From positions 2,267,001-2,331,000 of the forward strand of contig NZ_CP015381.1 in NCBI RefSeq assembly GCF_001854245.1: a stretch of DNA of 64,000 nucleotides, given 5' to 3'. Positions within the stretch are counted from its first letter, which is position 1. Every line of letters begins with the position of its first letter. Below, piece by piece: positions 15,121-59,748 of this stretch. Position numbers and translations under genes: made by a program. The notes beneath the pieces are model-generated. The model ran no database searches. It had not been told where the DNA came from and was given only the letters and a program-made list of their open reading frames with translations. Source of the DNA: Desulfococcus multivorans (GTDB lineage: Bacteria; Desulfobacterota; Desulfobacteria; Desulfobacterales; Desulfococcaceae).

Positions 15121-16470
15121 TTACACAACTCCCTGGTCGAGCATGGCATTGACCACCTTCACGAAACCGGCGATGTTTGCACCGGCCAGGTAATTTCCAG
15201 GATCATTGTATTCCTTTGCGGCATCGAGGCAGGTCTTGTGGATGGATTTCATGATGATCTTGAGTCGATCGTCAACCTCTTCACGCGGCCAGTTGAGGCG
15301 CATGCTGTTCTGGGACATCTCGAGGCCCGATACGGCGACCCCGCCGGCGTTGGAGGCCTTGCCCGGCGCATAGAGGATCTTTCGGTCGAGGAAGATGTTG
15401 ACGGCATCGGGGGTCGAGGGCATGTTGGCTCCCTCACATACCAGGAAAACGCCGTTTCTGATCAGATTTTCAGCATCTTTTTCGTTGATTTCGTTCTCGG
15501 TGGCGCAGGGCATGGCGCAGTCGGCCGGATGATCCCAGATGGCATTGCACCCCTTGGCAGGATCGGCTTCCGTGTAAACAACACCGGGATATTTTTCTAC
15601 ATACTCCTTGATCCGCCCCCGGCGAACATTTTTGAGGCGTTTGACAAAGTCCAGCTTGTTCTTGTCGATTCCTTCTTCGTCGTAGATGCTTCCCGAAGAA
15701 TCGGAGAGGGTGACCACCTTTGCGCCCAGTTCAATCAGCTTCTCGACGGTGAACTGCGCCACGTTGCCCGACCCGGAGACGAGAACGGTCTTGCCGGACA
15801 GGTCCTTGTTCCGGGTCGCCAGCATCTCCGCGGCAAAATAGACCGCACCGTAACCTGTGGCTTCGGGCCGAATGAGACTTCCGCCCCAGTTGATGCTCTT
15901 GCCGGTGAGGACACCCGTGAACTCGTTGGACAGTTTTTTATACATGCCGAAGAGATATCCGATCTCCCGGGCGCCCACGCCGATATCTCCGGCGGGCACG
16001 TCGGTGTTCGGGCCGATGTGGCGGTAGAGCTCGGCCATGAAACTCTGACAGAACCGCATCACCTCGATATCGGATTTTCCCTTGGGATCGAAATCCGATC
16101 CGCCCTTGCCGCCGCCCATGGGCAGGGTTGTCAGGGCGTTCTTGAAGACCTGCTCGAAGGCCAGGAATTTGAGGATGCTGAGGTTGACGGAAGGATGAAA
16201 CCTGAGGCCGCCCTTGTAAGGGCCGATGGCGCTGTTCATCTCGATCCGAAACCCTCTGTTGACCCGGACCTGTCCCTGGTCGTCCATCCAGGGTACCCTG
16301 AACATGATAGTTCGCTCGGGTTCGACGATCCGCTCCAGAATAGCGGCCTGACGATATTCCGGATTGCGGTCTAGAACCGGTCGGATGGTTTCCATTACCT
16401 CCTGAACGGCCTGATGAAACTCTTTCTGTCCCGGATCCTTTTCCTTGATCAATGTCAATATGTCGTTCAT
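15121..16470 (-). CDS. gdhA: Glutamate dehydrogenase (NADP-dependent type)
   Basis: The enzyme interconverts glutamate with 2-oxoglutarate and ammonia. The 449-residue length and 'MNSAIGPYKGGLRFHPSV' and 'LPMGGGKGGSDFDPKGKS' blocks (with the catalytic lysine) match the hexameric bacterial NADP-type enzymes. The dinucleotide-binding region reads 'VLVSGSGNVAQFTVEKLIEL'. The start has GGAGGTTGA just upstream. It lies 47 bases after the upstream PPDK_N-domain gene and directly precedes the amidohydrolase gene, all on the minus strand. Confidence 0.95.
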   Translation of the reverse strand: MNDILTLIKEKDPGQKEFHQAVQEVMETIRPVLDRNPEYRQAAILERIVEPERTIMFRVPWMDDQGQVRVNRGFRIEMNSAIGPYKGGLRFHPSVNLSILKFLAFEQVFKNALTTLPMGGGKGGSDFDPKGKSDIEVMRFCQSFMAELYRHIGPNTDVPAGDIGVGAREIGYLFGMYKKLSNEFTGVLTGKSINWGGSLIRPEATGYGAVYFAAEMLATRNKDLSGKTVLVSGSGNVAQFTVEKLIELGAKVVTLSDSSGSIYDEEGIDKNKLDFVKRLKNVRRGRIKEYVEKYPGVVYTEADPAKGCNAIWDHPADCAMPCATENEINEKDAENLIRNGVFLVCEGANMPSTPDAVNIFLDRKILYAPGKASNAGGVAVSGLEMSQNSMRLNWPREEVDDRLKIIMKSIHKTCLDAAKEYNDPGNYLAGANIAGFVKVVNAMLDQGVV

Positions 16471-37288: not shown

Positions 37289-38755
37289 TCATCGGCCCCG
37301 GCAGATTCGGATGATGACCGATTCCAGAAGCCGCCTCGGGGACCCCCCGGACGTTTTAAGATTTATGTCGGTCTCTTGCAGATTCTTCAGGATCTCGATC
37401 AGTTCGGCGAGGGTGAAGCGTTCGGCATTTTTGAGCAACAAGTAGACGGGATAGGGACTGCGGCCTTTGGGGGCCATGAGCAGATCGGTCCTGGGTTTGG
37501 CCGCGCCTCGCCGGAGCTTCTTGGAAACATCCGGGCCGTCGGCGTCCAATTCACGGGTTTCGTCCCACTCGGACAAGGCTGTCAGAAGGGCCTCGTCGTA
37601 TGCCGTCACTGCGGGCATGACGGACCGCTGAAAATCGGTGTAGCTGATGCCCCTTTTCCATGTCGATCCCCCCGGGCTCGTCATGAACCCCAATGCCAGG
37701 ACCATCCGCCGCACGGCGTTGACCATGGCCGCCAGGATTTGCAGCGGCACCAACCCTTCTTCCAGAAGGGCGTCCAGGTAGAATAGGGCGTTTTCGACAT
37801 TCCGTTCAGAAAGGGCGCCGGTCAATTCGTACACCGGATCCCGGCGTGTCCGTCTGAGAACCGCCGCCACATCCGGCGCCGTGATGATCGGTGCGTCCCC
37901 GGTAAAGCGGATCAGTTTTTCCAGGCCCGTCGTCAAACCGCGAAGATCGAAGCCGATCATCTCCAGCATCATCCGCCAGGCGGCAGGCGCCATCTGTTTC
38001 CGGCTTTCCGAAAGGATGGATCGGGCGTGATCGGCCAGCAGGGCCTCTCGAGCCGCGACATCCTTTCGTCCGGACCCCATGGGTACCGAACAGTTCACGA
38101 CCACGCCTTTTTCCAGGATGGTCTTGTAGAGCCCGCGACGTCTGTCGACGAGATCTGTAGTGATGAGCAGATAATTGCCGGTTGGGAACCCCCCTTCCAC
38201 CGCCTGCTGCAGGTCGGCGGATCGATCCGTATCGGCCGGGGAAGAAAGCCCCTTTTCAAGGCACCAGGCCGACAACGTCGCAACCCATGCGCCGTCCCCC
38301 CAGATATCCGGGTCCATTCGGCCACCCTTGGCGTCGGACGCCAGAAGCCCTGCGTCCGCGGGCGAAAGACCCACGAGCCCCAGGGCGGCCAGAAAATGCC
38401 GGGCAGCCTTTGGGACCTGTTCGTCATCCATGGCCTCCCGGGCTTTCCGGAACAATTTCTGATGGTCTTCCCGTGAATAGAAGATCCGGGAATCCATGAG
38501 CGCAATGACACGCGCGACGGAGAAGAGTGAAAAGGTGCTGACCCGCTCGACGGCGAGCCCGATGTCGTCGTTATCGACGATATCGTAAGATACGGACCTC
38601 TCGGGGCCGGGAAGCAGGCGGTTTACCAACCCGTCGGCCGCGTCCTTGCAAAGGGCCTCCTCCCCGTGAATCAGCCAGATCCGGGCAAGCTTGTCCGTCG
38701 GGGTTTCGCCGAGGTACTGCTTGAAACGGTTGTACGGTATCTCAGGCATGGGCAT
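37289..38755 (-). CDS. holA: DNA polymerase III delta subunit (clamp loader), extended
   Basis: HolA opens the beta clamp as part of the clamp loader. The 488-residue protein matches the family at 'RIWLIHGEEALCKDAADGLV' near the N terminus, 'NYLLITTDLVDRRRGLYKTI' in the AAA+ core and 'VAAVLRRTRRDPVYELTGAL' and 'PLQILAAMVNAVRRMVLALG' in the C-terminal collar. It is about 140 residues longer than E. coli HolA. Much of the extra length is near residues 98-178, where an insertion with helical character interrupts the core. GAAAGGG lies ahead of the first ATG, and a second ATG lies six bases on. Confidence 0.85.
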   Translation of the reverse strand: MPMPEIPYNRFKQYLGETPTDKLARIWLIHGEEALCKDAADGLVNRLLPGPERSVSYDIVDNDDIGLAVERVSTFSLFSVARVIALMDSRIFYSREDHQKLFRKAREAMDDEQVPKAARHFLAALGLVGLSPADAGLLASDAKGGRMDPDIWGDGAWVATLSAWCLEKGLSSPADTDRSADLQQAVEGGFPTGNYLLITTDLVDRRRGLYKTILEKGVVVNCSVPMGSGRKDVAAREALLADHARSILSESRKQMAPAAWRMMLEMIGFDLRGLTTGLEKLIRFTGDAPIITAPDVAAVLRRTRRDPVYELTGALSERNVENALFYLDALLEEGLVPLQILAAMVNAVRRMVLALGFMTSPGGSTWKRGISYTDFQRSVMPAVTAYDEALLTALSEWDETRELDADGPDVSKKLRRGAAKPRTDLLMAPKGRSPYPVYLLLKNAERFTLAELIEILKNLQETDINLKTSGGSPRRLLESVIIRICRGR

Positions 38756-38770
38756 GGGGCCCTTTCGGTG

Positions 38771-39262
38771 CTATTCCGGCATCCGGTTGAACACCAGGTG
38801 GACAACAAAAATACTCACACCGATGGTGATGGCGCTGTCCGCCGCGTTGAATGCCGGCCAGTGGGCGTTGCCGATGTGGAAATCAAGAAAATCGACGACC
38901 CTGCCGAATCGGAATCGATCGATAAGATTGCCGACCGCACCCCCGAAGATCAGAGCCAATCCGGCAGCCAGCCATGGATGGGTTTTGGGCGTCTTGTGAT
39001 GGAAGTAGAGGACGATCGCTGCCGCGACCGAGGACAGAATCAAAAAAACGCCCTTTCGAATCCAGGGTGCCTGGTCGGCCAGGAGTCCGAAGGCTCCGCC
39101 GGGGTTCTGTATGTGGGTAATGCTGAAAAGATTCGGTATCACCGGTATAGAATCGAACAGCGGTATGGCGTTCAGAATATAGGCCTTGGTGACCTGGTCG
39201 ATGACGATGACGGCACCACTGATCAGAACCAGTCGAAGATATTTGCGATTGTCGATGGGAAT
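38771..39262 (-). CDS. lspA: Lipoprotein signal peptidase (LspA) without a standard start codon
   Basis: LspA cleaves signal peptides of lipoproteins in the inner membrane. Four membrane helices and the catalytic blocks are present: 'GGAVGNLIDRFRFGRVVDFL' and 'FNAADSAITIGV' contain the two aspartates. The N-terminal homology includes 'KYLRLVLISGAVIVIDQVTK', which is upstream of the first standard start codon in frame (GTG ending at 39142). The only candidates near an AAAGGAG site are ATT at 39262 and ATC at 39256. The coordinates use ATT. A sequencing error or a frame shift from an ATG at about 39293 is possible. It follows ileS, the usual partner. Confidence 0.8.
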   Translation of the reverse strand: MPIDNRKYLRLVLISGAVIVIDQVTKAYILNAIPLFDSIPVIPNLFSITHIQNPGGAFGLLADQAPWIRKGVFLILSSVAAAIVLYFHHKTPKTHPWLAAGLALIFGGAVGNLIDRFRFGRVVDFLDFHIGNAHWPAFNAADSAITIGVSIFVVHLVFNRMPE

Positions 39263-39308
39263 CCGCTCCTTTAGGGCCGCCGGGACCGTCCATGGCTTGC
39301 GGCGGCAG

Positions 39309-39343
39309 AAAAAAGGGGGGGGACGACAACAGCGTCCTCCCCC
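39309..39343 (-). terminator. Rho-independent terminator between ileS and lspA
   Basis: On the minus strand GGGGGAGGACG and CGTCCCCCCCC pair with a seven-base loop and are followed by TTTTTT. It would stop most ileS transcripts before lspA. Confidence 0.75.
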
Positions 39344-39352
39344 GACATTCCG

Positions 39353-42154
39353 TTACAGGGCATCGATCTGGGATTTGCAGCGGCTGCAGATGGTCGGCGC
39401 GTCGGCGATGGTACCCACCGTGAGGTCGTGCACCCAGCAGCGTTCACATTTTTCACCGGGAGCCGTCGATACGTCGATGGCGAGCCCATCGATCTCCTTG
39501 CTGAGAAAACCCGCTTCGAAGGGCGCCTTGGCGAGTTCAATTTGTGAAACGATGAAGTACGTGTGCAGGTCGGCCTCATGGGCCTGCAGGACCGCCAGGA
39601 GATCGCCCGAGGCCCCGATGGTGACCCTGGCATCCAGGGGGTGGCCGATCTCTTTTTTGGCCCGCGATGCCTCGAGGGCCTTGGTGACCTCCCCCCGGAC
39701 CATGATCAACTGCCGCCATTGCCGCGCCAGGGCGTCGTTTTTCCAGGCCGGATCGGCATCGGGCATGGCGTGCAGGTGAACGCTTTCGGGCCGCCCCGTC
39801 ACATCCGGCATATGGGCCCAGACCTCTTCGGCGGTGAAGGGCAGGATGGGCGCCATCAACCGTACCACCGCATCCAGAATCCGGTACATGGCCGTCTGGG
39901 CACTCCGCCGTTCGATCGAATCGGGGGGCGACGTATAGAGCCGGTCTTTGAGAATGTCGAGATAAAAGGATGACAGATCGACCGTGCAGTAGTTGTGAAG
40001 CGCATGATAAATGACATGAAACTCGTAGGCATCATAGGCCTTTCGTCCTTTTTCCACCAGAGCGCCAAGGGTGTGCAGTGCGTATTTGTCGATGTCGAGC
40101 ATCATGTCATAAGTTACGGCATTTTGGGTCGGCATAAAATCAGACAGGTTTCCCAACATGAATCGACAGGTGTTTCGAATCCGCCGGTAGGCGTCGCTCA
40201 ACTGTTTGAGGATCGTCTCGGAGATGCGAACGTCGTCACGGTAGTCGGAAGCGGAAACCCAGAGCCTCAGGATTTCGGCGCCGTATCTGTCGATCACCGC
40301 TTTGGGCGCCACCACATTGCCGACGGATTTGGACATCTTGCGTCCCTGCTCGTCTACGACAAAACCATGGGTCAGGACAGCTTTGTAAGGCGCCGCCTGT
40401 CGGTTCCCAACAGCCGTCAAAAGAGAGCTGTGAAACCATCCCCGGTGCTGGTCGCTGCCTTCCAGGTAAAGGTCCGCCGGCCAGGATAGATAGTCGCGGG
40501 CTTCCAGAACCGCGGCATGGCTGACGCCCGAGTCGAACCAGACATCCAGGATATCGGTCTCCTTGGTGAAGGTGCGGCCGCCGCATTTGCCGCAGACCGT
40601 CCCGGCCGGCACCAGGTCGGAAGCATCCCTTTCCAGCCACACATCGGCCCCGTGCTCCCGGAAAAGATTGTAGACATGCGCGACGATCTCCTCGCTCACG
40701 ATCACCTCACCGCACGCTTCACAGAAAAAGACGGTTATCGGCACCCCCCAGGCGCGCTGCCGCGAAACACACCAGTCCGGCCGGTTCTGGATCATGCCGT
40801 AGATGCGCTCCCGCCCCCAGCTGGGTATCCATTGGACCCGGTCGATCTCCGCCAGGGAACGGTCTCTGAGCGCCGTCTTGTCCATGGAGATGAACCACTG
40901 GGGCGTCGCCCGGAAGATGACCGGCTGCTTGCAGCGCCAGCAGTGCGGATATGAGTGCCTGATGCCCTCTTCGGCCAGCAGCGCCCCGTTCTCCTGCAGC
41001 TTTTTGATGATCTCGGGGTTTGCCTTGAAGACGAACTGTCCCGCGAACAACCCCACATCTTCGGTGAAGCACCCCCGATCGTCCACGGGCGAATAAGCGT
41101 CGAGGTCGTATTTGAGACCCACCTCGTGGTCTTCCCTGCCGTGACCCGGCGCGGTATGGACACAACCCGTTCCGGCGTCGAGGGTGACGTGTTCGCCCAG
41201 AACGATAAGGGCGTCCCGGTCATAGAGGGGGTGAATGCACCGCTTATTTTCGAGGTCTTTCGCACGGATGTCCGAAACGATCGCGTAATCGGAGATGCCG
41301 AAGCGCTTCATGCAGTCCTCGACAAGGGTTTTTGCCAGGATCAGGGTTTCGCCGCCCCCCGTCTCCACCGCGGCATAATCAAATTCCGGATGAAGGGCGA
41401 CGGCCAGGTTGGCCGGAATGGTCCAGGGCGTCGTAGTCCATATGACGATGGAAACGCGTTTGTCTTTCAGGACCGGACAGGCCTCGCCGAGGTCGTCCTT
41501 CATCCGGAATTTGACAAAGATGGAGGGCGACGGCTCATCCGCATACTCGATTTCGGCCTCGGCAAGGGCGGTTTGGCAGCTGTTGCACCAGTAAATGGGC
41601 TTCTTGCTGTGGAAAAGGCTGCCTTCCAGAGCGAACCGACCGCATTCTCTCGCGATGACGGCTTCGTATTCGTAATTCATGGTCAGATAGGGATTTTCCC
41701 ACTCCCCCATGACCCCCAGCCGTTTGAACTCATTTCTTTGAATGTCGATGTATTTCTCGGCGTAGGCCCGACACAGCTTGCGGACCTCCACCTGACTCAT
41801 GGTCTCCTTATTCTTTTTCTGTTTCTTCAATTCCTTATCGACATTGTGCTCGATGGGAAGGCCGTGACAGTCCCATCCGGGGACATAGGGCGCATCAAAC
41901 CCGCTCATCTGCCGGGAACGGACGATGATATCCTTCAGAATCTTGTTCAGCGCGGTTCCAATGTGGATGTTTCCGTTGGCGTAAGGGGGGCCGTCATGAA
42001 GGATAAATTTTTTTCTGCCCGATGCGGCGGCCCGGATCTTCCGGTACAACCCCGCCGCTTCCCATTTTGCCAGTTGTTCGGGTTCCTTTTGCGCCAGATT
42101 CGCCTTCATGGGGAAAGCGGTGGCGGGTAGGTTAAGGGTTTTTTTGTAGTCCAT
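39353..42154 (-). CDS. ileS: Isoleucyl-tRNA synthetase
   Basis: The 933-residue class I synthetase has '[18 protein letters not shown]' (HIGH box), '[10 protein letters not shown]' (KMSKS box), the long editing insertion and a C-terminal zinc finger ('CERCW' and 'CSRCKSQ'). The zinc-finger form is the bacterial type sensitive to mupirocin in general. GCGAGGATTCA lies upstream of the ATG. A promoter candidate is at 42206-42234. Confidence 0.97.
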
Positions 42155-44805: not shown

Positions 44806-46340
44806 CTAATCTCCCAGGGCGGGGGACAGGTGTCCGGAATTTTGGGGGTGAAGCGCCGAGGGGTTGAGACGATCGGCTTTCCGACGGCGCGGGCAAGACC
44901 TTCCAGCATACCTCTGAAAACCCACTGATGTCCGGGATAGAGGACATACCAGTAGAGGAGCCCCCCCAGTCCTTTGGGCACAAATCGAGACAGAAATTCA
45001 ATTTCGGTTTCGCCGTCACGGGGATGGAGCCGGATGTCGAAAACAGCCTCGCCGGGGAGTTTCATCTCCGCCGTCAGGAGAAGCCGTCGTTCGGGCACCA
45101 TTTCGAGAACCCGCCAGAAATCGAGCGCGTCGCCCACCTGGAGACAGTCTGGGTGGCGGCGGCCCCGACGCAGCCCGACGCCGCCGATCCAGCGATCCAC
45201 CGCTCCCCGCAGTCGCCAGAGAAGATCTCCGAAATACCATCCCGTATCACCACCGATTTTTGCGACGGCCGGCCAGACCTCCCCCGGTCCGGCGTGGATC
45301 CCCACACGGTACCCACATTCCAGAATCGTGCCGCCGGTGTACTGGGCATCGCCGCAATAGGCCCATTCCGGGGGAATGAGGCATCCTGCATCGGACCAGC
45401 ACGTCTCCACGCGGTCCGCCCGGCTGCTTTCAACGGCCGTCCGAATCGTCTCGCGGCAGGTGTAGAGCCGCTGGGGAATGACAGTCCGGATGCGTTCATC
45501 GCCGCACACCGATTCGTTGCGAAGACCTTCGATGAGGGGTCTTGCAAGATCCGCGGGCACCGGCGTCATTCGATGAATCAGAAAGGCGCTCAGCGCCGGG
45601 GACACGAACGGGACCGGAATGATGTGCCGGCGCGGCAGCCCGGCTTCCTCAGCATAGATTTCAGCCAGGCGGCGATAGGATATCACGTCCGGTCCGCCGA
45701 TATCGAAGGTCTGCCCCAAGACGGCCTCGGTTTCGAGACATCCCTTGAGGTATAGGAGGACGTTGCGGATGGATATGGGCTGGTTCAGGGTTTCGACCCA
45801 GCGGGGGGCGAGCATTACGGGGAACCGTTCGACGACATAGCGAAGTATCTCGAAAGAGGCGCTGCCGGCCCCCAGAATCGCCCCGGCTCTGAGGTCGGTT
45901 ACGGGGACGCTTCCGGATTTCAGGATCCCGGCAACCTCCTTCCGGGATGCCAGGTGCTCGCTGAGCCGATGATGCCCGGCTTCGGCCAACCCCCCGAGAT
46001 AGATGACGCGGTCCATTCCGGCATCCGCGGCCGCGTCGGCCATATGGCGGGCACCGGTCCGGTCCGCCCGGGCGAAGTCCAGGCCCGCCGCCGTCATGGA
46101 ATGGACCAGGTAAACCGCCGCTCGACAGCCCCGGGCCGCGGTCCGCAGGGATTCGAAATCGAGGACGTCCCCCGCGATCATTTCGAAATTCGGGTGGTTC
46201 GCCCACGAGCGGGCCGCCATTTTGGAAAAGGATCGCCCCATGGCCCTGACACGGTAACCGGACTCGAGGAGCAGGGGTACCAGTCTTCCACCGACGTATC
46301 CGGTTGATCCGATGACAAGTACGGGTTTCTCTGATATCAT
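44799..46340 (-). CDS. SDR-type NAD(P)-binding protein with DUF2867 domain
   Basis: The first 300 residues form an extended/atypical SDR fold ('PVLVIGSTGYVGGRLVPLLL' binds the nucleotide, then 'RVIYLGGLAE', 'DLRAGAILGAGSASFEILRY'). The last 200 residues form a DUF2867 domain with 'VGDALDFWRVLEM' and 'LGGLLYWYVLYPGHQWVF', typical of the family found with photolyase genes. The reaction is unknown. The gene ends inside a repeat element, with the final 'EIRD' partly encoded by it, so the C terminus may be altered. Confidence 0.8.
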   Translation of the reverse strand: MISEKPVLVIGSTGYVGGRLVPLLLESGYRVRAMGRSFSKMAARSWANHPNFEMIAGDVLDFESLRTAARGCRAAVYLVHSMTAAGLDFARADRTGARHMADAAADAGMDRVIYLGGLAEAGHHRLSEHLASRKEVAGILKSGSVPVTDLRAGAILGAGSASFEILRYVVERFPVMLAPRWVETLNQPISIRNVLLYLKGCLETEAVLGQTFDIGGPDVISYRRLAEIYAEEAGLPRRHIIPVPFVSPALSAFLIHRMTPVPADLARPLIEGLRNESVCGDERIRTVIPQRLYTCRETIRTAVESSRADRVETCWSDAGCLIPPEWAYCGDAQYTGGTILECGYRVGIHAGPGEVWPAVAKIGGDTGWYFGDLLWRLRGAVDRWIGGVGLRRGRRHPDCLQVGDALDFWRVLEMVPERRLLLTAEMKLPGEAVFDIRLHPRDGETEIEFLSRFVPKGLGGLLYWYVLYPGHQWVFRGMLEGLARAVGKPIVSTPRRFTPKIPDTCPPPWEIRD

Positions 46341-46504
46341 ATGTTTTCCGACCGCTTCGTTATGCCCGACGACGTCTGAATCGTCTGGGCGGATGTTGGT
46401 CGTCCACGCCCGACGACGGCCGCAAGTTTTGTGAAATTATACCGCTTCCGTGCGGCAAATCAAGCAAATAAAGAGAAGACGCCCCGGCAGAGAGGAAAAG
46501 ACCC

Positions 46505-47974: not shown

Positions 47975-50773
47975 CTATTGGCCTTCGGTTTCGGCTTCGG
48001 GTGCCGGGGCCGGCGGCGGGACCATGGGCGCTTCATTGCCGGTCCCGGGTGCCGGAACGATGTCCGGAGCCGGCGGCGGGACCATGGGCGCTTCATTGCC
48101 GGTCCCGGGTGCCGGAACGATGTCCGGAGCCGGCGGCGCCGGAGCCGGCAGCACCCCGTCTTCGGCGGCCGGGAAACGCCTCTGGATGCGTTCCAATCGC
48201 ATCGCCAGCATTTTTTGGAGCGTTTCAATACACTCCTCGATAGTGCGCTCCATCACCACCAGTTCCCCCTGGCTGACGATGATCCGCTGGAGTTCCGGAA
48301 TCTTCAGGCCCTTGGCCGATATCATGTAGATCGGTTGAATGTAGAGGATCAGATCTTCCAGGGGCAGAAGCACCATCCGACCGAACTGGACCTGGGATCC
48401 GGCTTGATCCCAGAGACTCAGCTGTTGAGCGATGAGACTGTTCTGATTGATCTGCGCCTCGATCTGGGAAGGACCGTACACCTGCTGACCGCGGGGGAAG
48501 CTGTATACGGTGACCCGGCCGTAATTGGAAACATCGCAGCCCACCGTGACGATCGACCGGAGGTTGTCCCGACCGATGGGGCTCATGGGGCTCACCAGTA
48601 TGAAGCCCTGGTCGTCCCCCGCCTTGAGGCTGACGGTCATATAGTAGGGATTCATGGGGCCCCGGCTCATCTTGGCGAATTCCCACGTGTCCTCGTCCTG
48701 ATAGAACTGTTCCGGATTCGTCTGGTGATACTTGGCGAAGATGGCCATCTGAACGGCAAAAAGATCCCGGGGATAGCGGACGTGATTCCGCAGATCCTCG
48801 GGCATTTCGCTCATCGGCTTCAGAAGCCCGGGGTAAATCCGGTCGTAGGCATCGGCGATGGGATCCTCCGGATCGGCCAGGTAATACATCACCGTACCGT
48901 TGTAGGCGTCGATAACGATCTTCACCGAGTTGCGGATATAGTTGAAATCCTTGCCATAGAAGGTGGATGCGGGATCGGTGGTGCGATAGGCGTGGGCGTT
49001 GGGAAAATATGCCGATGTGGTGTAGGCGTCCATGATCCAGAACATCCCCCTGGGGGTGGCCACGATGTAGGGATCCTTGTCCATCAGGAAATAGGGCGTG
49101 ATCTGGTTCACCGCCTCGACGATGTTCCTGCGGAGCAGAATACGGCTCCTGGAGGTCGTCTTGGTACTGAAAAAAATGTTGCGGTCGTTGAAATACACCG
49201 AAAACAACAGCTTCCGAAGAAGGGTGGTAATGGGGATGCCGCCGCTTCCCGCATAGTCCGTCATAATATCTTTGTCGCCCCGCTGATGATCGATCTCTCC
49301 GATGTCGTTGGGCGCGATGGCATAGGCATAATCCTGTTCGCCGTAGTAAATTCTCGGCTCGCGCACCGTAATCCCGTAATCCGACTGCAGGGGGATATCG
49401 CGCATGAACCATGTCATGGGCTCTTCTCCGCCCTGGGCGGCAGGGCTCATGACCACGCCGTAACCGTGGGTGTACTGCAGGTGCCGGTTGATCCAGTTCT
49501 GGGCCGCTTCGGGCAGGTCATCGAGGTTGATCTCCCGCGCGCCGATGTTGACCTGCTGGTAGACGTCCGCCACGGTGTACCGGTCTTCGTCCACGTCCGG
49601 AAAGGAGTAGTAGGTCCTGAACCCCTGAAGCTGACGGTAGACCTCGTCCAGGAGTTCCCGGTCCCACACCGGTATGTTGGACAGGGCATCCTGAAGCGCG
49701 GGGTTCTTCTCCAGATCGAGATTCTGAGTGACGCGGAGATTATCCGTTATGACCTGGTCGAGCTTATAGGCTTTAAGGGTCGACGCGACGCTGGTTTCGA
49801 TGAACGGCTTTTCCCGGATCATCTCGTTGGGCTGAACGACGTATTTATCCACCGACTCGTGAAGAGAGGTCGTATTGTAGACGCCCAGAAATATCAGGAA
49901 AAACGCCGCGAACACCACACCAGCCTTGAGAAATTTGCGCTTGAAGAAAAACAGAAGGAACGAAACGGCCGTTCCCAGAAAGGTAAACGTCGTCAACAGG
50001 ATCAGGGGGATGTCGATCCAGTTCTCGATGAACCCCGGGCCGTAAAAAATAGGCTCATGGGTTTCAACATACTGGAGTTCGACGATTTTGAGCAGAAACC
50101 CCCACGTCTGCAACAACACGACGATGAGGGCCACGATGGCCAGATGGATTTTGGCACCTTTGGGAATGACCTCTTCTATCCGGCAGAGCAGACGATTTTC
50201 GACGAAATAGAGGATGAAAAGAAAGGCGAAAAGAAAGATGAAGACCATCATGAGCTGAGACTGCAGAAACTCGTATATCGGGTATCCAAACAGGAAAAAG
50301 CTGATGTCCAGACCGAGATCGATGTCCCGATATCCGGCGGAGCTCCCGAAGAAGAACAGCAACCCCTGCTCCCAACGTTCATAAAAGGGAACGGAAATCG
50401 GAAAGGCGAGAAAAACCGATATGGGGGTGTAGATCTTCATGGATCCGCTTTGGATCATCTTCATCCAGCGTCGTGTCTTCCGTTCGTTCTCGGCGGTATC
50501 GGGCATGACGCAGGAGTCCGGGGAGAGGCCCAGGTATCGCGATGCAATCCAGAAATTGAAGAAGAAAATGAGAAACAGGACCAGGGTGACGGCGCCGAAA
50601 ATCAGGTACCGGTAAAAGAGCCGCATGAGGTAATATCCCTTGAGGTTCTGAGAATCGAACCACCAGAGATTCACGAAAAAATTGAGAAAAACGAAATTGA
50701 ATATGACGTAGGCCACTGAGAGCAGTATGATCGCGACAATGCCCAGGACAAGCCACCGCACCCACTTCTGCAT
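47975..50773 (-). CDS. UPF0182 family membrane protein
   Basis: The 932-residue protein has about seven membrane helices in the first 330 residues ('WLVLGIVAIILLSVAYVIFN' first), then a long soluble part with 'ELQYVETHEPIFYGPGFIE', 'NVPVWDRELL'-like 'NIPVWDRELLDEVYRQLQ' and 'TPYFLMDKDPYIVATPRG', typical of UPF0182 (COG1615). The function of the family is unknown. The C-terminal tail is proline-rich and contains a duplicated 20-residue unit encoded by a 60-bp tandem repeat. GGAGGGAAGG precedes the start. Confidence 0.88.
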   Translation of the reverse strand: MQKWVRWLVLGIVAIILLSVAYVIFNFVFLNFFVNLWWFDSQNLKGYYLMRLFYRYLIFGAVTLVLFLIFFFNFWIASRYLGLSPDSCVMPDTAENERKTRRWMKMIQSGSMKIYTPISVFLAFPISVPFYERWEQGLLFFFGSSAGYRDIDLGLDISFFLFGYPIYEFLQSQLMMVFIFLFAFLFILYFVENRLLCRIEEVIPKGAKIHLAIVALIVVLLQTWGFLLKIVELQYVETHEPIFYGPGFIENWIDIPLILLTTFTFLGTAVSFLLFFFKRKFLKAGVVFAAFFLIFLGVYNTTSLHESVDKYVVQPNEMIREKPFIETSVASTLKAYKLDQVITDNLRVTQNLDLEKNPALQDALSNIPVWDRELLDEVYRQLQGFRTYYSFPDVDEDRYTVADVYQQVNIGAREINLDDLPEAAQNWINRHLQYTHGYGVVMSPAAQGGEEPMTWFMRDIPLQSDYGITVREPRIYYGEQDYAYAIAPNDIGEIDHQRGDKDIMTDYAGSGGIPITTLLRKLLFSVYFNDRNIFFSTKTTSRSRILLRRNIVEAVNQITPYFLMDKDPYIVATPRGMFWIMDAYTTSAYFPNAHAYRTTDPASTFYGKDFNYIRNSVKIVIDAYNGTVMYYLADPEDPIADAYDRIYPGLLKPMSEMPEDLRNHVRYPRDLFAVQMAIFAKYHQTNPEQFYQDEDTWEFAKMSRGPMNPYYMTVSLKAGDDQGFILVSPMSPIGRDNLRSIVTVGCDVSNYGRVTVYSFPRGQQVYGPSQIEAQINQNSLIAQQLSLWDQAGSQVQFGRMVLLPLEDLILYIQPIYMISAKGLKIPELQRIIVSQGELVVMERTIEECIETLQKMLAMRLERIQRRFPAAEDGVLPAPAPPAPDIVPAPGTGNEAPMVPPPAPDIVPAPGTGNEAPMVPPPAPAPEAETEGQ
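48010..48138. repeat. 60-bp tandem duplication inside the UPF0182 gene
   Basis: Two exact 60-bp copies lie side by side (about 48010-48069 and 48070-48129), followed by nine bases of a third. The unit is in frame and doubles a 20-residue proline-rich segment that includes 'APGTGNEAPMVPPPAPDIVP'. Identity at every base points to a recent duplication. Confidence 0.95.
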
Positions 50774-50895
50774 CCTTCCCTCCTGTATCCGAATCGCAAT
50801 GTAACAGCGCCGATCCCGGAAGGGGCGCCGCCGTCATGGGAAACCAGTTTAACATCGTCACCCTATCAGAGGCATCCGCTATTTTCAAGAGAATC

Positions 50896-52626
50896 TTACC
50901 GGTTGCGCAAGGAGAGCAGAAGGACGAAACCCCCCGTGATCATGAAAATTTTTCCGAAAAATACCCCACCCGCGATCCCGAATAGGACGGCTCCGGAAAC
51001 CAGAAGACCGGCCGCGAGGACATGGTTCGCCAGCCGATCCACCGACCGACCGATATCGGTCAGGACACGACGCCCATCCTGATCAGGGGTCATCCGCACC
51101 ACCAGCCGGCCCTGATGAATTCGGTCCATCATGGCATCCGCCTTACGGGGCAGCCGGCACAACGCTCGGAGGAGTGCGACCGTGTTTTCGGGCAGGGAGA
51201 GGAAGGACCTTTCCATGGCTGATGCGGCGTAGCGTCGGGCGTAAGGAATGGTTTTGGACCAGACGTCGAATTCGGGGTCCAAATGGGCGGCCATCCCGGA
51301 CAGGATGCCGACGGCACGGATGACGAAGAGCATATCCGCCTGGAATTGAAACGGGGCGTTGAGAATGACGTCGCTGTATTCCCGCGCGAAGTATCGGGCC
51401 TCCCTGATGGCTGCTTCATGGAGCCGCCCGGCCTGAACGCCCCAGAACCGGTCGAGCAGGGCTTCGTGGACCGCCTCCAGCCGCTGCAGATCCGCATGGG
51501 GCAGAAGTGTGCCGGCCTTGAGATACGATGCGACGATCCGGCGAGCGTCTCGGGTCCCGAGACCCACGGCATAGTCTCGCAGGGCGGATTGAAGCCGCTC
51601 CGGGATGAAAATCATCATACCGAAATCGACGAAAACGATCTGAAATGGGCGGTTCGGTCCGCAGGGCACTGAATCTCCCGGCGCAAAAGCCGTCACGCCC
51701 CTTTCGAATTCCTCCGGGAGCGGCAACGGGCGTACAAACAGGTTTCCGGGATGCGGGTCGACATGAACGAAATGGGTTTCAAAGACCTGCCGCATATAGA
51801 GCGCGTAAAGGCGGTCCGCCACGCGTGCCGGATCGATCCCCACCCGGCGGAGGGCATCGACGTCGCCGATCTTGATGAAGCCGACGTCCTCCAGCGTCAA
51901 CGTGCCGCCGGCCGAATGGGACCAGTAGATTTTGGGGATATAGACCCCGGGATCATCGGCGGTATCCTCAGCCAGGCGCTCGGCGTTTTGTCCTTCGTTG
52001 GAAAAATCGAGTTCCTTCCGCGTCACGGCGCTGAACTCCCGATAGAGCCAGTCCGGATCGATCCGTCGCCGGATGGGTTCGTACCATTTCAACCAGGCGA
52101 GCGCTGCTTTGACGGCGGCAAGATCCGCCGCCACCCGCTCCTCGATTCCCGGTCTCAACACCTTGGAGACGGCCCGTTCTCCGGTGTCGAGGCGCACCGC
52201 GTGGACCTGGGCCAGGGAAGCGGCACCGACCGGAACCGGGGAAATCCATGCGAAAACCTCATCGGCCGGCCGGCCGAAATCCAAAGCGATACGGGCTTTG
52301 ATCCGATCGAAGGATTCGGGCGGCACCTCATCCTGAAGATCGGACAACTCCCTGGTGATCTCCATCGGAAGGATATCCACACGAATGCTCAAGAATTGGC
52401 CCAACTTGATCAGAACCCCGCCCATTTCCACCGCCAGGGCGCGAAACTCCCGGGCGATTTGCCGCCATCGGCCAATCGGTTCCGGGCGGAACCGTCTGAG
52501 GAGGGGACGGTTGATGAGAACATCCCACCATAGGGCCTGAATCACCACCTTCAGAAAAAAAGCTCTGACCCTGCGATAACGCTGAATATCGATGTCAATG
52601 TCCACGGACCGTGGTTCACCAGTCAT
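50896..52626 (-). CDS. UbiB/ABC1-type protein kinase-like protein
   Basis: The 576-residue protein belongs to the UbiB (ABC1/ADCK) atypical kinase family. It has the diagnostic 'GGVLIKLGQFLSIRVDILP' (KxGQ), 'PVPVGAASLAQVHAVRL' (the alanine-rich loop), and 'THFVHVDPHPGNLFV'. Two membrane helices close the C terminus ('HVLAAGLLVSGAVLFGIAGG' and 'IFMITGGFVLLLSL'). Members affect quinone biosynthesis; menaquinone would be expected in an anaerobe. The ATG at 52626 is chosen because it follows the stop of a small gene by eight bases, while a TTG at 52713 would overlap that gene. Confidence 0.87.
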   Translation of the reverse strand: MTGEPRSVDIDIDIQRYRRVRAFFLKVVIQALWWDVLINRPLLRRFRPEPIGRWRQIAREFRALAVEMGGVLIKLGQFLSIRVDILPMEITRELSDLQDEVPPESFDRIKARIALDFGRPADEVFAWISPVPVGAASLAQVHAVRLDTGERAVSKVLRPGIEERVAADLAAVKAALAWLKWYEPIRRRIDPDWLYREFSAVTRKELDFSNEGQNAERLAEDTADDPGVYIPKIYWSHSAGGTLTLEDVGFIKIGDVDALRRVGIDPARVADRLYALYMRQVFETHFVHVDPHPGNLFVRPLPLPEEFERGVTAFAPGDSVPCGPNRPFQIVFVDFGMMIFIPERLQSALRDYAVGLGTRDARRIVASYLKAGTLLPHADLQRLEAVHEALLDRFWGVQAGRLHEAAIREARYFAREYSDVILNAPFQFQADMLFVIRAVGILSGMAAHLDPEFDVWSKTIPYARRYAASAMERSFLSLPENTVALLRALCRLPRKADAMMDRIHQGRLVVRMTPDQDGRRVLTDIGRSVDRLANHVLAAGLLVSGAVLFGIAGGVFFGKIFMITGGFVLLLSLRNR

Positions 52627-54171: not shown

Positions 54172-54236
54172 TCATGAAATCATCAGAGCGACGGCTCGGC
54201 CGAAACCGTTGTCGCGTCACCGGGAGACGGAAAAAG

Positions 54237-54932
54237 ATGACCACCAAAGCACGTATTCTCGTCGTGGATGATGAAGAGGACATCCTTGAACTCGTCCGAT
54301 ACAACCTCGTCGGTGAGGGCTTCGATGTGATTCCGGCGGAGACCGGCGAACAAGCCCTCAAAATCGCCGGAAACGAACATCCCGATCTGATTCTTCTGGA
54401 CCTGATGCTGCCAGGGATCAACGGCATCGAAGTGGCCAAGCGACTTAAAAACAATGTCAGAACCCGCGACATTCCAATCATTATGCTGACGGCCAGGGGG
54501 GAAGAGGCCGACATTGTGCTGGGCCTGGAAATCGGGGCCGACGATTATGTGACCAAGCCCTTCAGTCCCCGGGTTCTGAATGCCAGGACCCGAGCGGTCA
54601 TCCGGCGGAACAGGTCGGATGTCGCGGACCCCGGCACCGTCATCCGCATCCGGGATCTGGTCATCGATCCCGGCAGACGCAGGGTCGAGCTCCGGGGAAA
54701 GGAGATCGACCTGTCCTTCACGGAATTCCAGATTCTGCTCTTTCTAAGCCGTCGCCCCGGTTGGGTGTTCACCCGATCCCAGATCGTCGACGCCGTCAGG
54801 GGCGAAAATTACCCCGTCACCGACCGGAGCGTGGATGTCCAGATCGTCGGGCTGCGAAAAAAACTCGGCTCCTGCGGGAACTATATCCAGACGGTCCGCG
54901 CCGTCGGATACCGGTTCAAGGAACTGTCATGA
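54237..54932 (+). CDS. PhoB-like response regulator
   Basis: The 231-residue protein is an OmpR/PhoB-type regulator. The receiver domain has the acidic pair 'VVDDEED', the phosphoacceptor in 'LILLDLMLPGINGIE' and lysine in 'DDYVTKPFSP'. The C-terminal winged helix has 'ELRGKEIDLSFTEFQILLFL' and 'RSVDVQIVGLRKKLG'. GGGAG precedes the ATG at 54237. The stop overlaps the kinase start by four bases. Phosphate genes (pst, phoU) are not in the window, so the stimulus is not proven. Confidence 0.9.
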   Translation: MTTKARILVVDDEEDILELVRYNLVGEGFDVIPAETGEQALKIAGNEHPDLILLDLMLPGINGIEVAKRLKNNVRTRDIPIIMLTARGEEADIVLGLEIGADDYVTKPFSPRVLNARTRAVIRRNRSDVADPGTVIRIRDLVIDPGRRRVELRGKEIDLSFTEFQILLFLSRRPGWVFTRSQIVDAVRGENYPVTDRSVDVQIVGLRKKLGSCGNYIQTVRAVGYRFKELS

Positions 54933-56752
54933 AAACGCCCAAGAGCCTGTTCTGGCGGATTTACCCGTCTTATCTTGTCGTCATCCTGATGGCGCTTGCC
55001 CTGGTCGGCCTCCACACCTCGGCCGTCATGAAACGCTACTATCACGAACAGATGACCCTGGGGCTCGAATCCCGGGCGAACCTGTTGCGGAATTCGGTTC
55101 TGGGGCGTCTGACGCCCCTCGACGAGGCCGCCCTCGACCGTTTGTGCAAAACAGCCGGTCGCCATGCCGACACCCGCATTACCGTCGTCCTGCCCTCGGG
55201 CAGGGTGGTCGGGGACTCCGAGGAAATCCCCGCACGCATGGACAACCACGCAGGAAGGCCTGAAATCAGCAAGGCCTTTCGGGGATCGACCGGACAGTCC
55301 ATCCGGCACAGCGAAACCCTGTCGACGTCCATGATGTACGTTGCCGTGCCTGTCGAGCGGCAGGGCAGAACACTGGCGGTGATTCGGACGGCGCTGCCGC
55401 TGGATGAGATCGGTCGAAAGATAGGCGGCTTTCAACGAACGATTTTCCAGGCGGGTCTTCTGGTCGCCCTGATGGCGGCTGTGATCGGTTATGCCGTGGC
55501 CCGCCGCATCGCCCGCCCCATCGAGGAGGTCCGAAAGGGCGCCGAGCGATTCGCCAAAGGGGATTTCACCTATGCCATCCCCCCGCCCAAGTCCAAAGAG
55601 ATGGTTATGCTGGTCAACACGCTTACCCAGATGGCGTCGGAGCTCAACGACCGCATTCAGACCGTGGACCGGCAGCGCGGAGAACTCGAGGCGGTGCTGT
55701 CGAGCATGCAGGAGGGCGTCATCGCCTTCAACATGGACGAAACCCTCATCAACGCCAATGCGGCGGCTGCCGGAATGTTCAATTTCAAACCATCCAACGC
55801 CATCGGTCGAAGCATTCAGGAGGTCATTCGAAATCCCCAGCTCCATCGGTTCGTTCATGACGCCCTGGGCGGGAAGAGCGACACCGAAGGCGAGATCCGT
55901 CTCTATCAGGAAGAGGCGGAACGCATCCTCGGCACCCATTCGTCGCCGCTTCGTGAATCCAACGGCAAACGGATCGGCACATTGATCGTTTTTCACGACA
56001 TCACCCGACTGAGGCGGCTGGAAACCGTACGCCGGGAATTCGCGGCCAACGTCTCCCATGAAATCAAGACACCGTTGACGGCCATCAAGGGGTTTGTCGA
56101 AACCCTGCTCGGCGGCGCGGTGGACGATCCCGAGGCGGCCAGGCGCTTTCTTCGGATCATCGAAAAACATGCCGACCGACTCACCGCCATAATCGAGGAT
56201 TTGATGAAGCTCTCCGAGATCGAGCAGAAAGGGCGGAACCGGGGGATCGGATTGAAGCGGGAAGCCATGGCGCCGGTTATCCGGAACGCCGTCGAGGTTT
56301 GCCGGGTCCGGGCCGACGAAAAGAAGATCGCCGTGGAGGTGGACTGCGACGAAGCCGTCGTCGCCGAGATCAACGCCCATTTCCTGGAGCAGGCCGTGGT
56401 CAATCTCGTGGACAACGCCCTCAAGTACAGCGGCACCGGCAAAGCGGTCCGCGTTCGGTCACGGCTTATCAAAGACAGCGTCGAGATTCGCATCGAGGAC
56501 GAGGGCATCGGCATCCCCGGATCTCACCTGCCCCGGCTTTTCGAGCGGTTTTACCGTGTCGACAAATCCCGCAGCCGAAAGGAAGGGGGCACCGGCCTGG
56601 GGCTCGCCATCGTGAAGCATATCGTGCAGGCCCACGGGGGGAAGATCGATGTCGAGAGCACCCCGGGCAAAGGCAGCACCTTCATCATTCGTCTGCCGAC
56701 CGTCGGCGGGGTCAACGGAACCGATCCGCCAGAATGCGGTAGCGCCGCATGA
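54929..56752 (+). CDS. PhoR-like sensor histidine kinase
   Basis: The 607-residue membrane kinase has two helices (about 10-30 and 165-190) flanking a periplasmic sensor, then a HAMP segment ('ARRIARPIEEVRKGAERFAK'), a PAS domain (about 250-360), a HisKA box ('FAANVSHEIKTPLTAIKGFV') and an ATPase domain with 'DNALKYSG', 'DEGIGIP' and 'GGTGLGLAIVKHIV'. This matches the PhoR layout. The ATG overlaps the regulator's stop (ATGA). Its 3' end overlaps the convergent NtrC-type gene by 41 bases. Confidence 0.9.
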   Translation: MKTPKSLFWRIYPSYLVVILMALALVGLHTSAVMKRYYHEQMTLGLESRANLLRNSVLGRLTPLDEAALDRLCKTAGRHADTRITVVLPSGRVVGDSEEIPARMDNHAGRPEISKAFRGSTGQSIRHSETLSTSMMYVAVPVERQGRTLAVIRTALPLDEIGRKIGGFQRTIFQAGLLVALMAAVIGYAVARRIARPIEEVRKGAERFAKGDFTYAIPPPKSKEMVMLVNTLTQMASELNDRIQTVDRQRGELEAVLSSMQEGVIAFNMDETLINANAAAAGMFNFKPSNAIGRSIQEVIRNPQLHRFVHDALGGKSDTEGEIRLYQEEAERILGTHSSPLRESNGKRIGTLIVFHDITRLRRLETVRREFAANVSHEIKTPLTAIKGFVETLLGGAVDDPEAARRFLRIIEKHADRLTAIIEDLMKLSEIEQKGRNRGIGLKREAMAPVIRNAVEVCRVRADEKKIAVEVDCDEAVVAEINAHFLEQAVVNLVDNALKYSGTGKAVRVRSRLIKDSVEIRIEDEGIGIPGSHLPRLFERFYRVDKSRSRKEGGTGLGLAIVKHIVQAHGGKIDVESTPGKGSTFIIRLPTVGGVNGTDPPECGSAA

Positions 56753-58106
56753 TCTGCTGGAGAGACTGACGTTCGAGGCCGCATTTGCGGGCGGCCTGGG
56801 TGACGTTTCCGCCGGTTTCGGCGAGGAGCCGTCCAATGTAGGCATTGTTGAAGCGCTGCAGATTTCTTTCCTTGGCATCCCTGTAGGGCAGGTCGAGCAA
56901 GGTCTCTTCCTCCGGACAGTCCCCCGTTCCGGACAGTCTTTCGATCCCGATGTCCCGGGGCTGAATCTCTTCGCCGCCGGAAAAGAGAATCCCCTGGATG
57001 ATGACGTTCTCCAGTTCACGCACATTGCCCTCCCAGGGGCGTTCGACAAGCAGTTCCATCAATTTGGGTGACAGCGTCTTCAGGGGCTTCGAAAGCTTGC
57101 GGCAGTGCTTTGCCAGGATATGATCGGCAATCAGGGGAATATCCTCCCGACGCTCCCGAAGCGGCGGTAAGGTGATGGGCAGAACGTTCAGACGGTAAAA
57201 AAAGTCCTCCCGGAAGGTACCCTCCCGAATCTTCTCCCGAAGGTTCTGGTTGGTGGACGAAATGATCCGGACATCCACTGAGATGGTCCGGTTGTCGCCA
57301 AGGGGCTTGATCTCCTTTTCCTGGATGACCCTGAGAAGCTTCGTTTGAATCGCCGGACTGACGTCGCCGATTTCGTCCAGAAAAAGCGTCCCCTTGTCGG
57401 CCTCCTGAAAAAGGCCGATCTTGTTTTGGGTGGCGTGGGTAAAAGCGCCTTTCTTGTAGCCGAAAAGCTCGCTTTCGAGGATGTGCTCGGGAACGGTCGG
57501 ACAATTGACGGGGACATAGGGCCCTTCGCTTCGGGCGCTCAAGGCATGAATGGCCCGGGCGGTCAGGTCCTTCCCGGTACCGGATTCTCCGGTGATCAGG
57601 ACCGTAAACTCCGTATTGGCCACCATCCGGATGGTCTCGAATACCCGCTGCATGACGGCGCTCTTTCCCACCAGATCCTGAAAGACGTGGGACGTTCGGG
57701 TCTCTTTTTTCAGACGGAGGTTTTCCCGGATCAGGCTGCTGCGCTCCAGGGCCTTTTCCAGCCGGAGTACAAGCGCATCGTGGTCAAACGGTTTGGTGAT
57801 GAAATCGTAGGCACCGTGCTTCATGGCTTCCACTGCCGTCTCGATGGAGCCGTGACCCGTCATCATCACGACGGTCTGTTCGGGATAATCCCGTTTGACC
57901 ATCTCCAGCAGGGCAAGTCCGTCCATACCCGGCATCTTGATGTCCGCCAGAATCAGATCGAAATATCCCTGGGAGACGTGCCGGAGCGCCTCGGTTCCGG
58001 ACGATGCGAGGGTCACCCGGCATTTCAGGTCCGGTTCGAGGCTGCGTTTCAGCAGCACGAGCATGTCCGGTTCGTCGTCAACGATGAGAATGGCGCGCGT
58101 TGTCAT
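56712..58106 (-). CDS. NtrC-type sigma-54-dependent response regulator
   Basis: The 464-residue protein has a receiver domain ('ILIVDDEPDM', 'FDLILADIKMPGMDGLALLE', 'DFITKPFDH'), an AAA+ domain with Walker A 'GESGTGKDLTARA' and Walker B 'TLFLDEIGDV', and a C-terminal Fis-type helix-turn-helix ('NVTQAARKCGLERQSLQQIM'). The sigma-54 contact loop reads 'GAFTHA' instead of the usual 'GAFTGA'. It overlaps the kinase gene by four bases (58103-58106). Two sigma-54 promoter matches lie at the far end of the cluster and are plausible targets. Confidence 0.93.
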   Translation of the reverse strand: MTTRAILIVDDEPDMLVLLKRSLEPDLKCRVTLASSGTEALRHVSQGYFDLILADIKMPGMDGLALLEMVKRDYPEQTVVMMTGHGSIETAVEAMKHGAYDFITKPFDHDALVLRLEKALERSSLIRENLRLKKETRTSHVFQDLVGKSAVMQRVFETIRMVANTEFTVLITGESGTGKDLTARAIHALSARSEGPYVPVNCPTVPEHILESELFGYKKGAFTHATQNKIGLFQEADKGTLFLDEIGDVSPAIQTKLLRVIQEKEIKPLGDNRTISVDVRIISSTNQNLREKIREGTFREDFFYRLNVLPITLPPLRERREDIPLIADHILAKHCRKLSKPLKTLSPKLMELLVERPWEGNVRELENVIIQGILFSGGEEIQPRDIGIERLSGTGDCPEEETLLDLPYRDAKERNLQRFNNAYIGRLLAETGGNVTQAARKCGLERQSLQQIMRRYRILADRFR

Positions 58107-59263
58107 GATACATGATCTCCCGGCCGGGGCGTGGCCGGCAGCGTAATCGTGAATTCGGCGCCTTTGCCGGGTTCGCTCTCCACGGAAATGTTCCCGCCGT
58201 GATTTTTCACGATGCCGTAGCTGACGGCCAGACCCAGGCCTGTGCCTTCTCCGGTGGGTTTGGTGGTGAAAAACGGATCGAAAATACGGGGAAGATCCTT
58301 CTTTTCAATGCCGTAGCCCGTATCCTTGACGCGTATCAGAAGCTGACCCGCAGGCGCGTCGTACAGCGTGGCGATTCGAATGGTTCCTTGATTGTGGTTG
58401 GCATGCTGGGCGTTCATGATGAGATTGATCAGCACCTGTCGTATCTTTTTTTCGTCCATGTAAAGCGGGGGCGCACTCCGATCGTATTCTCTCCGGAAGG
58501 TGAGCGCATTGGCGCCGGCCTGGTGGGTAACGAAAACCAGCACCTCCTCGATGATATCGTGGATATCGACCAGGGTGTTTTCCGGTTTCGAGCTTCGGGC
58601 GAAATTGAGAAGATCGGCAACGATGGCCTTGCAGTTCTTGACATGCTTCTCGATGATCTTGAGGTCTTCGAATTTCTGTGTGCCGGCAGGCTCGGATCGA
58701 ATCAACAGCTGGGTATACCCCAGGATAATGCCGAGTGGATTGTTGATTTCGTGGGCGATGCCCGAGGAGAGCTGACCGATGGAGGCCAGCTTGTCCGCCT
58801 GGGCGATTTGTTTTTCGGAGCGTGCCAGAGCCTCGGTCCGCTCCCTTACGCGCCTCTCCAGGTTTTCGTTCAGGTCGAGCAGCTCGCGATGGGCGGTTTG
58901 AATGGCGGTCTTATCGTTCATAATCTCCCGATACACCCGCCATGCCTGTCCGAAAAAGAGGGTAATGGACGCCACGATGATCAGCATGAAGGTGTTGACC
59001 CCGCCGCTGAAGGGCCGAATGAGCTCCCACACCTCCCCGTGCCCCGTGAAAAGCAGGACCTGCTTCAGGATGTGGCCGGCGGAGCGGGATACCGCGAACC
59101 CGGCCAGAAAATAACTCATCCAGAGGAGGTAGGTCCACATCAGGTGATTGGGGTTTCGTCGGTTCAGCTCCCGTGTCAGTCCGATGCACATGAAGCTCAG
59201 AACGATCATGGCGACGGAACCCACCAGGTCCACCACGATAATGGGAATGGCCGGCACGATCAT
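58103..59263 (-). CDS. Sensor histidine kinase with membrane domain
   Basis: The 386-residue protein has several N-terminal membrane helices (about 5-110), a coiled linker, the HisKA box 'LSSGIAHEINNPLGIILGYT' and an ATPase domain with 'NLIMNAQHANHN', 'DTGYGIEKKDLPRIFDPFF' and 'GTGLGLAVSYGIVKNHGG'. It is NtrB-like in its kinase part. It overlaps the regulator gene downstream and the membrane-protein gene upstream by four bases each, so it is coupled to both. The sensed signal is unknown. Confidence 0.9.
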   Translation of the reverse strand: MIVPAIPIIVVDLVGSVAMIVLSFMCIGLTRELNRRNPNHLMWTYLLWMSYFLAGFAVSRSAGHILKQVLLFTGHGEVWELIRPFSGGVNTFMLIIVASITLFFGQAWRVYREIMNDKTAIQTAHRELLDLNENLERRVRERTEALARSEKQIAQADKLASIGQLSSGIAHEINNPLGIILGYTQLLIRSEPAGTQKFEDLKIIEKHVKNCKAIVADLLNFARSSKPENTLVDIHDIIEEVLVFVTHQAGANALTFRREYDRSAPPLYMDEKKIRQVLINLIMNAQHANHNQGTIRIATLYDAPAGQLLIRVKDTGYGIEKKDLPRIFDPFFTTKPTGEGTGLGLAVSYGIVKNHGGNISVESEPGKGAEFTITLPATPRPGDHVS

Positions 59264-59748
59264 GGGCCTGCCGGGACCTCGTCGGCCGGGTGTCGCTTGA
59301 GGAGCTGTTTCAGCCCCAGATAAAGCAGAAACAGGGCCGGCACGCAGAAGAGGTGGTCAAGCTTGACCAGGTAGTAAAGCCCCTTGATCCAGTCGACGTC
59401 CGGGATCGAATCGATCTGCAACATCCAGTCATCGCGTCGGGCAACCTGGATGATGGGGTATTGCTCGTCCATGAGGTGAACAGTGAAGGCGTCGATGGTC
59501 CAGAAAATGAAGAAAAGCGCTGAATACTGAAGGTTGCGCCATCCCCCCGTCAGCACCAGACCCCGCCGCCTCAGCCAGTAGATGAGAAGCCCCATGGAAT
59601 AGGCCAGGAAGAGGTGAGACATCTGGTGGACGTACAAACCCTCGGGGTCCCCGTGGGCCTGGGTGGCGAAAACCGGACCCGGAGCGGCCAGAGTCATCCC
59701 GGCGGCCATGAGAAGCGCGTATGAAACGCGGCTCCCGACGGTACTCAA
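59260..59748 (-). CDS. Membrane protein of the TauE cluster (unrecognised)
   Basis: The 162-residue protein begins at TTG (59748), supported by GGAGGTG just upstream and a four-base overlap (TTGA) with the preceding gene. It has a signal-like helix ('YALLMAAGMTLAAPGPVFA') and two to three further membrane helices ('LFLAYSMGLLIYWL', 'ALFFIFWTIDAF', 'CVPALFLLYLGLKQLL'). No family is recognised. It lies between the second membrane protein and the kinase and may help sense or transport the same substrate. Confidence 0.65.
   Translation of the reverse strand: MSTVGSRVSYALLMAAGMTLAAPGPVFATQAHGDPEGLYVHQMSHLFLAYSMGLLIYWLRRRGLVLTGGWRNLQYSALFFIFWTIDAFTVHLMDEQYPIIQVARRDDWMLQIDSIPDVDWIKGLYYLVKLDHLFCVPALFLLYLGLKQLLKRHPADEVPAGP

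Follow-up and report, generated by a model that had tools for sequence, protein, structure and literature searches.

Conserved leader sequences point to a probable ATC start codon for lspA in Desulfococcus multivorans

Introduction

In Escherichia coli, pcnB is translated from an AUU start codon. It is comparable to lspA of Desulfococcus multivorans, as proposed here, in having an ATH start outside the initiation factors, and differs from it in gene and lineage. According to PMC5472188, the infC start is ATT in E. coli and ATC in Streptomyces, where sigR starts at GTC and is repressed by IF3. In PMC10158994, IF3 is described as requiring Watson-Crick pairing at the first two bases of the start codon; at base 3 it tolerates some other pairs and excludes weaker ones.

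The lspA locus of D. multivorans resembles infC in carrying an ATH codon behind a good Shine-Dalgarno sequence, an arrangement kept among relatives. The infC codon, however, serves autoregulation, whereas LspA is not a translation factor, so that an IF3 effect on lspA would mean either regulation by a different protein or nothing more than low output. With sigR, for which PMC5472188 describes IF3 repression, the locus would share a non-canonical start outside infC, but the sigR codon is GTC rather than ATC and helps to set the sigma/antisigma ratio. Our search of the open literature found no earlier account of lspA starting at such a codon. D. multivorans is a marine sulfate-reducing bacterium, and the window analyzed here, a stretch of 64,000 nucleotides, lies within a single 4,455,399-base contig.

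Results

The lspA gene (lipoprotein signal peptidase, Peptidase_A8) occupies positions 38771..39256 on the minus strand and comprises 161 codons plus a stop when read from an ATC codon at 39256. It is adjoined by ileS (39353-42154) and, on the other side, by a DNA polymerase III delta-like gene (37289-38755), both putatively named from a reading of their sequences. From the ileS stop codon TAA (39353..39355, minus strand) as far as the lspA stop at 38771, the lspA frame is uninterrupted; in D. multivorans the two genes share one frame with that single TAA between them (39355-39256, minus strand). The part of this frame that separates the ileS stop from a GTG at 39140..39142 (minus strand) contains no ATG, GTG or TTG. 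This GTG, the first in-frame standard start, lies inside the protein, 38 codons after the ATC and downstream of both the first membrane helix and the DQ motif. Encoded upstream of it are KYLRLVLISGAVIVIDQVTK and the LspA peptide LVLISGAVIVIDQVTK.

The lspA product matches PF01252 (2e-42, 145.2 bits, cut-off 25) and the NCBIfam lspA model TIGR00077 (121.6 bits, cut-off 73.95), and it is the sole match in the genome, indicating a single copy. The original prediction held that LspA homology extends upstream of the GTG at 39142, and this proved correct, coordinates included: the match to TIGR00077 begins at model position 7 for the whole frame, against position 45 for a protein that starts at the GTG. 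Relatives likewise align across the residues upstream of the GTG, and the homology there is not due to chance. Relatives of known structure include PDB entries 9emz, 5dir and 6ryo, and the DQVTK, GNLIDR and FNAADSAI stretches of LspA align with chains 9emz_A and 5dir_A. We take the hallmarks of signal peptidase II to be an N-terminal helix with the DQ motif, together with GNxxDR and FNxADSAI stretches that carry the catalytic aspartates. With both profiles over their cut-offs and the DQ, GNxxDR and FNxADSAI stretches all present, lspA is, as judged from its sequence, intact.

We compared the leader of lspA with that of a single sister species, Desulfococcus G001, so that the comparison covers two species only; G001 comes from a separate assembly of about 550 contigs. 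The LspA proteins of the two species are 82% identical over 161 residues, and the G001 leader reads ...TCAAAGGAGCGGATCGTCATCGATAATCGCAAATAC. A block of 12 bases, AAAGGAGCGGAT (39272-39261, minus strand), is identical in both species and starts 16 bases before the ATC in both. It contains the Shine-Dalgarno sequence AAAGGAG (39266..39272, minus strand), and the ATC itself (39254..39256, minus strand) is identical at L115:3792-3794 of G001. AAAGGAGCGGAT is the longest exact run common to the ileS-lspA intergenic stretches of the two species (96 and 160 nt); when these were shuffled by mononucleotide, an exact run of at least 12 bases arose anywhere in 7 of 2000 shuffles. Close relatedness of the two species does not account for the block, because fourfold-degenerate sites agree at only 45-52% (31/69 in lspA and 189/364 in ileS).

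The pattern of amino-acid change around the ATC also differs by region. None of the seven codons from 0 to 6, counted from the ATC, carries an amino-acid change between the two species, whereas each of the six codons at -15 to -10 does. Codons -9 to -1 are mixed, and the residues K-E-R-I encoded by the Shine-Dalgarno block are kept as amino acids too, so protein conservation alone cannot fix the start to an exact codon. Among codons -9 to 0, only two differ from ATG solely at the third base in both species: codon -2, which is ATT in D. multivorans (39260..39262, minus strand) and ATC in G001, and the ATC at codon 0. Over all 161 codons, lspA shows 59 synonymous versus 29 amino-acid changes.

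In G001, the ileS stop lies 163 bases before the ATC (first base to first base), out of frame with lspA, and there is no ATG in the last 90 bases before the ATC. Further upstream, an in-frame GTG and an in-frame ATG precede the DQ aspartate by 35 and 50 codons, respectively; inspection by eye revealed no clear Shine-Dalgarno sequence for either. We also observed a 17-base direct repeat, GCAATGAGAATTCCGGG, at L115:3625-3641 and 3696-3712 of G001. Its first copy spans the ileS stop and its second lies 71 bases later in the ileS-lspA gap, and the repeat may be the source of the longer gap in this species.

The gap in D. multivorans contains a terminator-like hairpin between ileS and lspA (39309..39343, minus strand), composed of a stem-loop at 39343-39315 followed by a T6 tract at 39314-39309. 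It folds at -20.7 kcal/mol (z -2.91), with none of 200 shuffles as good, and is missing from the output of a simple terminator scan. The same gap in G001 holds a strong hairpin without a T tract (L115:3708-3735, -22.9 kcal/mol). The D. multivorans leader (39200-39360), folded as a whole, has an unremarkable z of -0.64. Within it, the stretch that holds the stem immediately 5′ of the Shine-Dalgarno sequence is no better than shuffles (z 0.29), and the corresponding longer stretch of G001 folds better than shuffles (z -2.67). A scan of 38600-39700 detected no sigma-70-type promoters, with 0.3 expected.

To place the D. multivorans leader among its relatives, we surveyed the codons available upstream of the DQ motif. 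An lspA match was found in 55 of the 58 relative genomes searched, the genome of D. multivorans included. These 55 loci were combined with the best 80 of 212 relatives from a wider search of genome contigs; among those best 80, identity to LspA reached 62% and no record bore the name Desulfococcus. Eleven loci were left out, namely L031-L034 and L115, which repeat places already included, and the infC loci L116-L121; 41 loci without an lspA match and four duplicates were also dropped, giving 134 distinct loci. In 131 of them a standard codon precedes the DQ aspartate by 11-34 codons; such a codon was scored as a possible start, and it may be an internal Met, Val or Leu. Two loci (G001 and L085) have a standard codon only further upstream, 35 codons away in both. 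The one locus without any standard codon upstream of the motif is that of D. multivorans. Ten stretches of viral contigs matched a pattern, and none encodes a relative.

As a background, 47 open reading frames of the window were aligned to G001, and a shared standard start was sought within 25 columns of the alignment start. Seventeen lacked a standard start in the same column. For eleven of these, the window's own frame does offer a standard codon no more than 25 codons from the alignment start; in three of the eleven (15124-15699, 56036-56704 and 59278-59745) the match begins deep inside the frame and is uninformative. The remaining six include lspA, with no standard codon. Two more of the six, 44814-46421 and 58106-59350, each have a shared ATG 27-31 columns in, and 15697-16371 is an interior match at a contig end. 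The frames 54222-54713 and 50752-50982, together with 57282-58109 from among the eleven, were judged by eye to be antisense shadows. Against this rough background, lspA is a clear exception among the 47.

The original prediction had placed ATT 39262 and ATC 39256 near the AAAGGAG site, and both positions were confirmed. We used Shine-Dalgarno spacing to choose between them. Among 32 window genes, 16 match the assumed anti-Shine-Dalgarno sequence over 5 bases or more, and their aligned spacing is most commonly 5 or 6 (9/16); the others are one each at 2, 4, 7, 8 and 11, and two at 13. Measured from AAGGAG, the aligned spacing is 8 for ATC 39256, inside the range of the window though not the commonest, and 2 for ATT 39262, far below the usual 5-6. 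The codon at spacing 5 is CCC in D. multivorans and GTC in G001. Spacing therefore favors the ATC over the ATT, with neither at the commonest distance. A start at the ATT, two codons earlier, has in its favor that the codon is ATH in both species, the change being synonymous, and that one window gene has a 6-base Shine-Dalgarno match at spacing 2; but the codon that follows it also differs between the species (CCC versus GTC), and we regard this start as unlikely, although it is the leading rival to the ATC.

A sequencing or assembly error could conceal an in-frame standard start with a single base change, but an identical error would have to be present in the assemblies of two different species, both of which have the ATC behind the same Shine-Dalgarno block; we consider this highly improbable. 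Ribosomes might instead produce an N-terminally extended LspA by reading through the ileS stop or by shifting frame from an upstream ATG. Readthrough, which in D. multivorans would join ileS to lspA, was attractive from the frame that they share there, and we rejected it on the broken frame of G001. As for the frameshift, the out-of-frame ATG that the original prediction had noted about 30 bases upstream does exist, at 39288..39290 (minus strand), 34 bases before the ATC; it was discarded as a source of LspA since it has no counterpart in G001. Slippery sites were inspected by eye only. Codons -15 to -10 are not conserved, and an extended protein made in either way is very unlikely. Error, readthrough and frameshift are all disfavored because the second species has the same Shine-Dalgarno and ATC arrangement. 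Finally, GTG 39142 is the start that an annotation pipeline limited to ATG, GTG and TTG would be expected to pick, but its product would lack helix 1 and the DQ motif, although the residues preceding it are kept in the sister species and in relatives. The alternative that lspA is decaying is at odds with the excess of synonymous changes and with its being the only lspA copy found in the genome. There is very little probability that the GTG is the true start or that the gene is decaying.

Given the analogy with infC drawn in the original prediction, we examined infC in the family, and the analogy was apt. In all six family genomes, at loci L116 (G002), L117 (G005), L118 (G000), L119 (G001), L120 (G004) and L121 (G003), GGAGGTG is followed by ATA GCT, whose frame continues through 173-174 codons of infC. 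In four of these genomes the ATA frame holds no standard codon further upstream. In G001, ATG codons lie 10 and 13 codons upstream of the ATA, and G005 has five upstream standard codons, the nearest of which, a GTG 2 codons upstream, overlaps the Shine-Dalgarno sequence. GTG codons downstream of the ATA occur in some of the genomes and are not common to all. From this conservation, infC appears to start at ATA throughout the family, unlike the ATT of E. coli and the ATC of Streptomyces given in PMC5472188. The presence of the ATA in six of six genomes suggests that these cells probably use such starts elsewhere too.

Discussion

Our analysis suggests that translation of lspA in D. multivorans probably begins at ATC 39256, an isoleucine codon behind a Shine-Dalgarno sequence. 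D. multivorans has no standard in-frame start for the full protein, and a Shine-Dalgarno sequence followed by an ATH codon is kept across the two Desulfococcus species. The rare ATT/ATC start offered as one option in the original prediction is thereby well supported by the same Shine-Dalgarno block and ATC in the second species, and the shared arrangement is probably genuine and not a product of faulty sequencing.

We envisage that the AAAGGAG site would position the 30S subunit and that fMet-tRNA would pair with AUC via the first two bases only, yielding fMet-Asp-Asn-Arg-Lys-Tyr-Leu..., a full-length LspA that includes the first membrane helix. The third-base mismatch would make initiation weak and IF3-sensitive, as for infC. 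AUC is expected to be poor as a start because IF3 excludes weaker pairs at base 3, and the pairing rules, as given in PMC10158994, fit a weak, IF3-discouraged start at the ATC. The rare start and the terminator-like hairpin could jointly hold LspA at a low level, in line with an enzyme of which the cell requires little. Initiation at the ATC, low output and a role for IF3 are all inferred.

Conservation of the ATC may partly reflect the residue that it encodes. In G005 (same family, L003) and G017 (same order, L016), Ile-Asp at the matching place is internal to the protein, with an ATG further upstream. Likely, Desulfococcus lost such an upstream ATG, and its role passed to an Ile codon inside the gene that stood behind a Shine-Dalgarno sequence. 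A more far-reaching idea is that selection keeps the ATC of lspA as a control point, which in this genus would tie lipoprotein maturation to the ratio of IF3 to ribosomes. We hold this idea to be doubtful; if it were true, lspA and infC, with its ATA, would answer to the same fidelity signal.

On present evidence, lspA appears to be one more gene with a rare start of a known kind. Gene finders limited to the three standard codons would produce a truncated LspA without its first membrane helix. Beside infC, lspA would be a second example in one organism, kept in two species, and the pair would make it easy to test whether ordinary housekeeping genes are controlled through IF3 proofreading.
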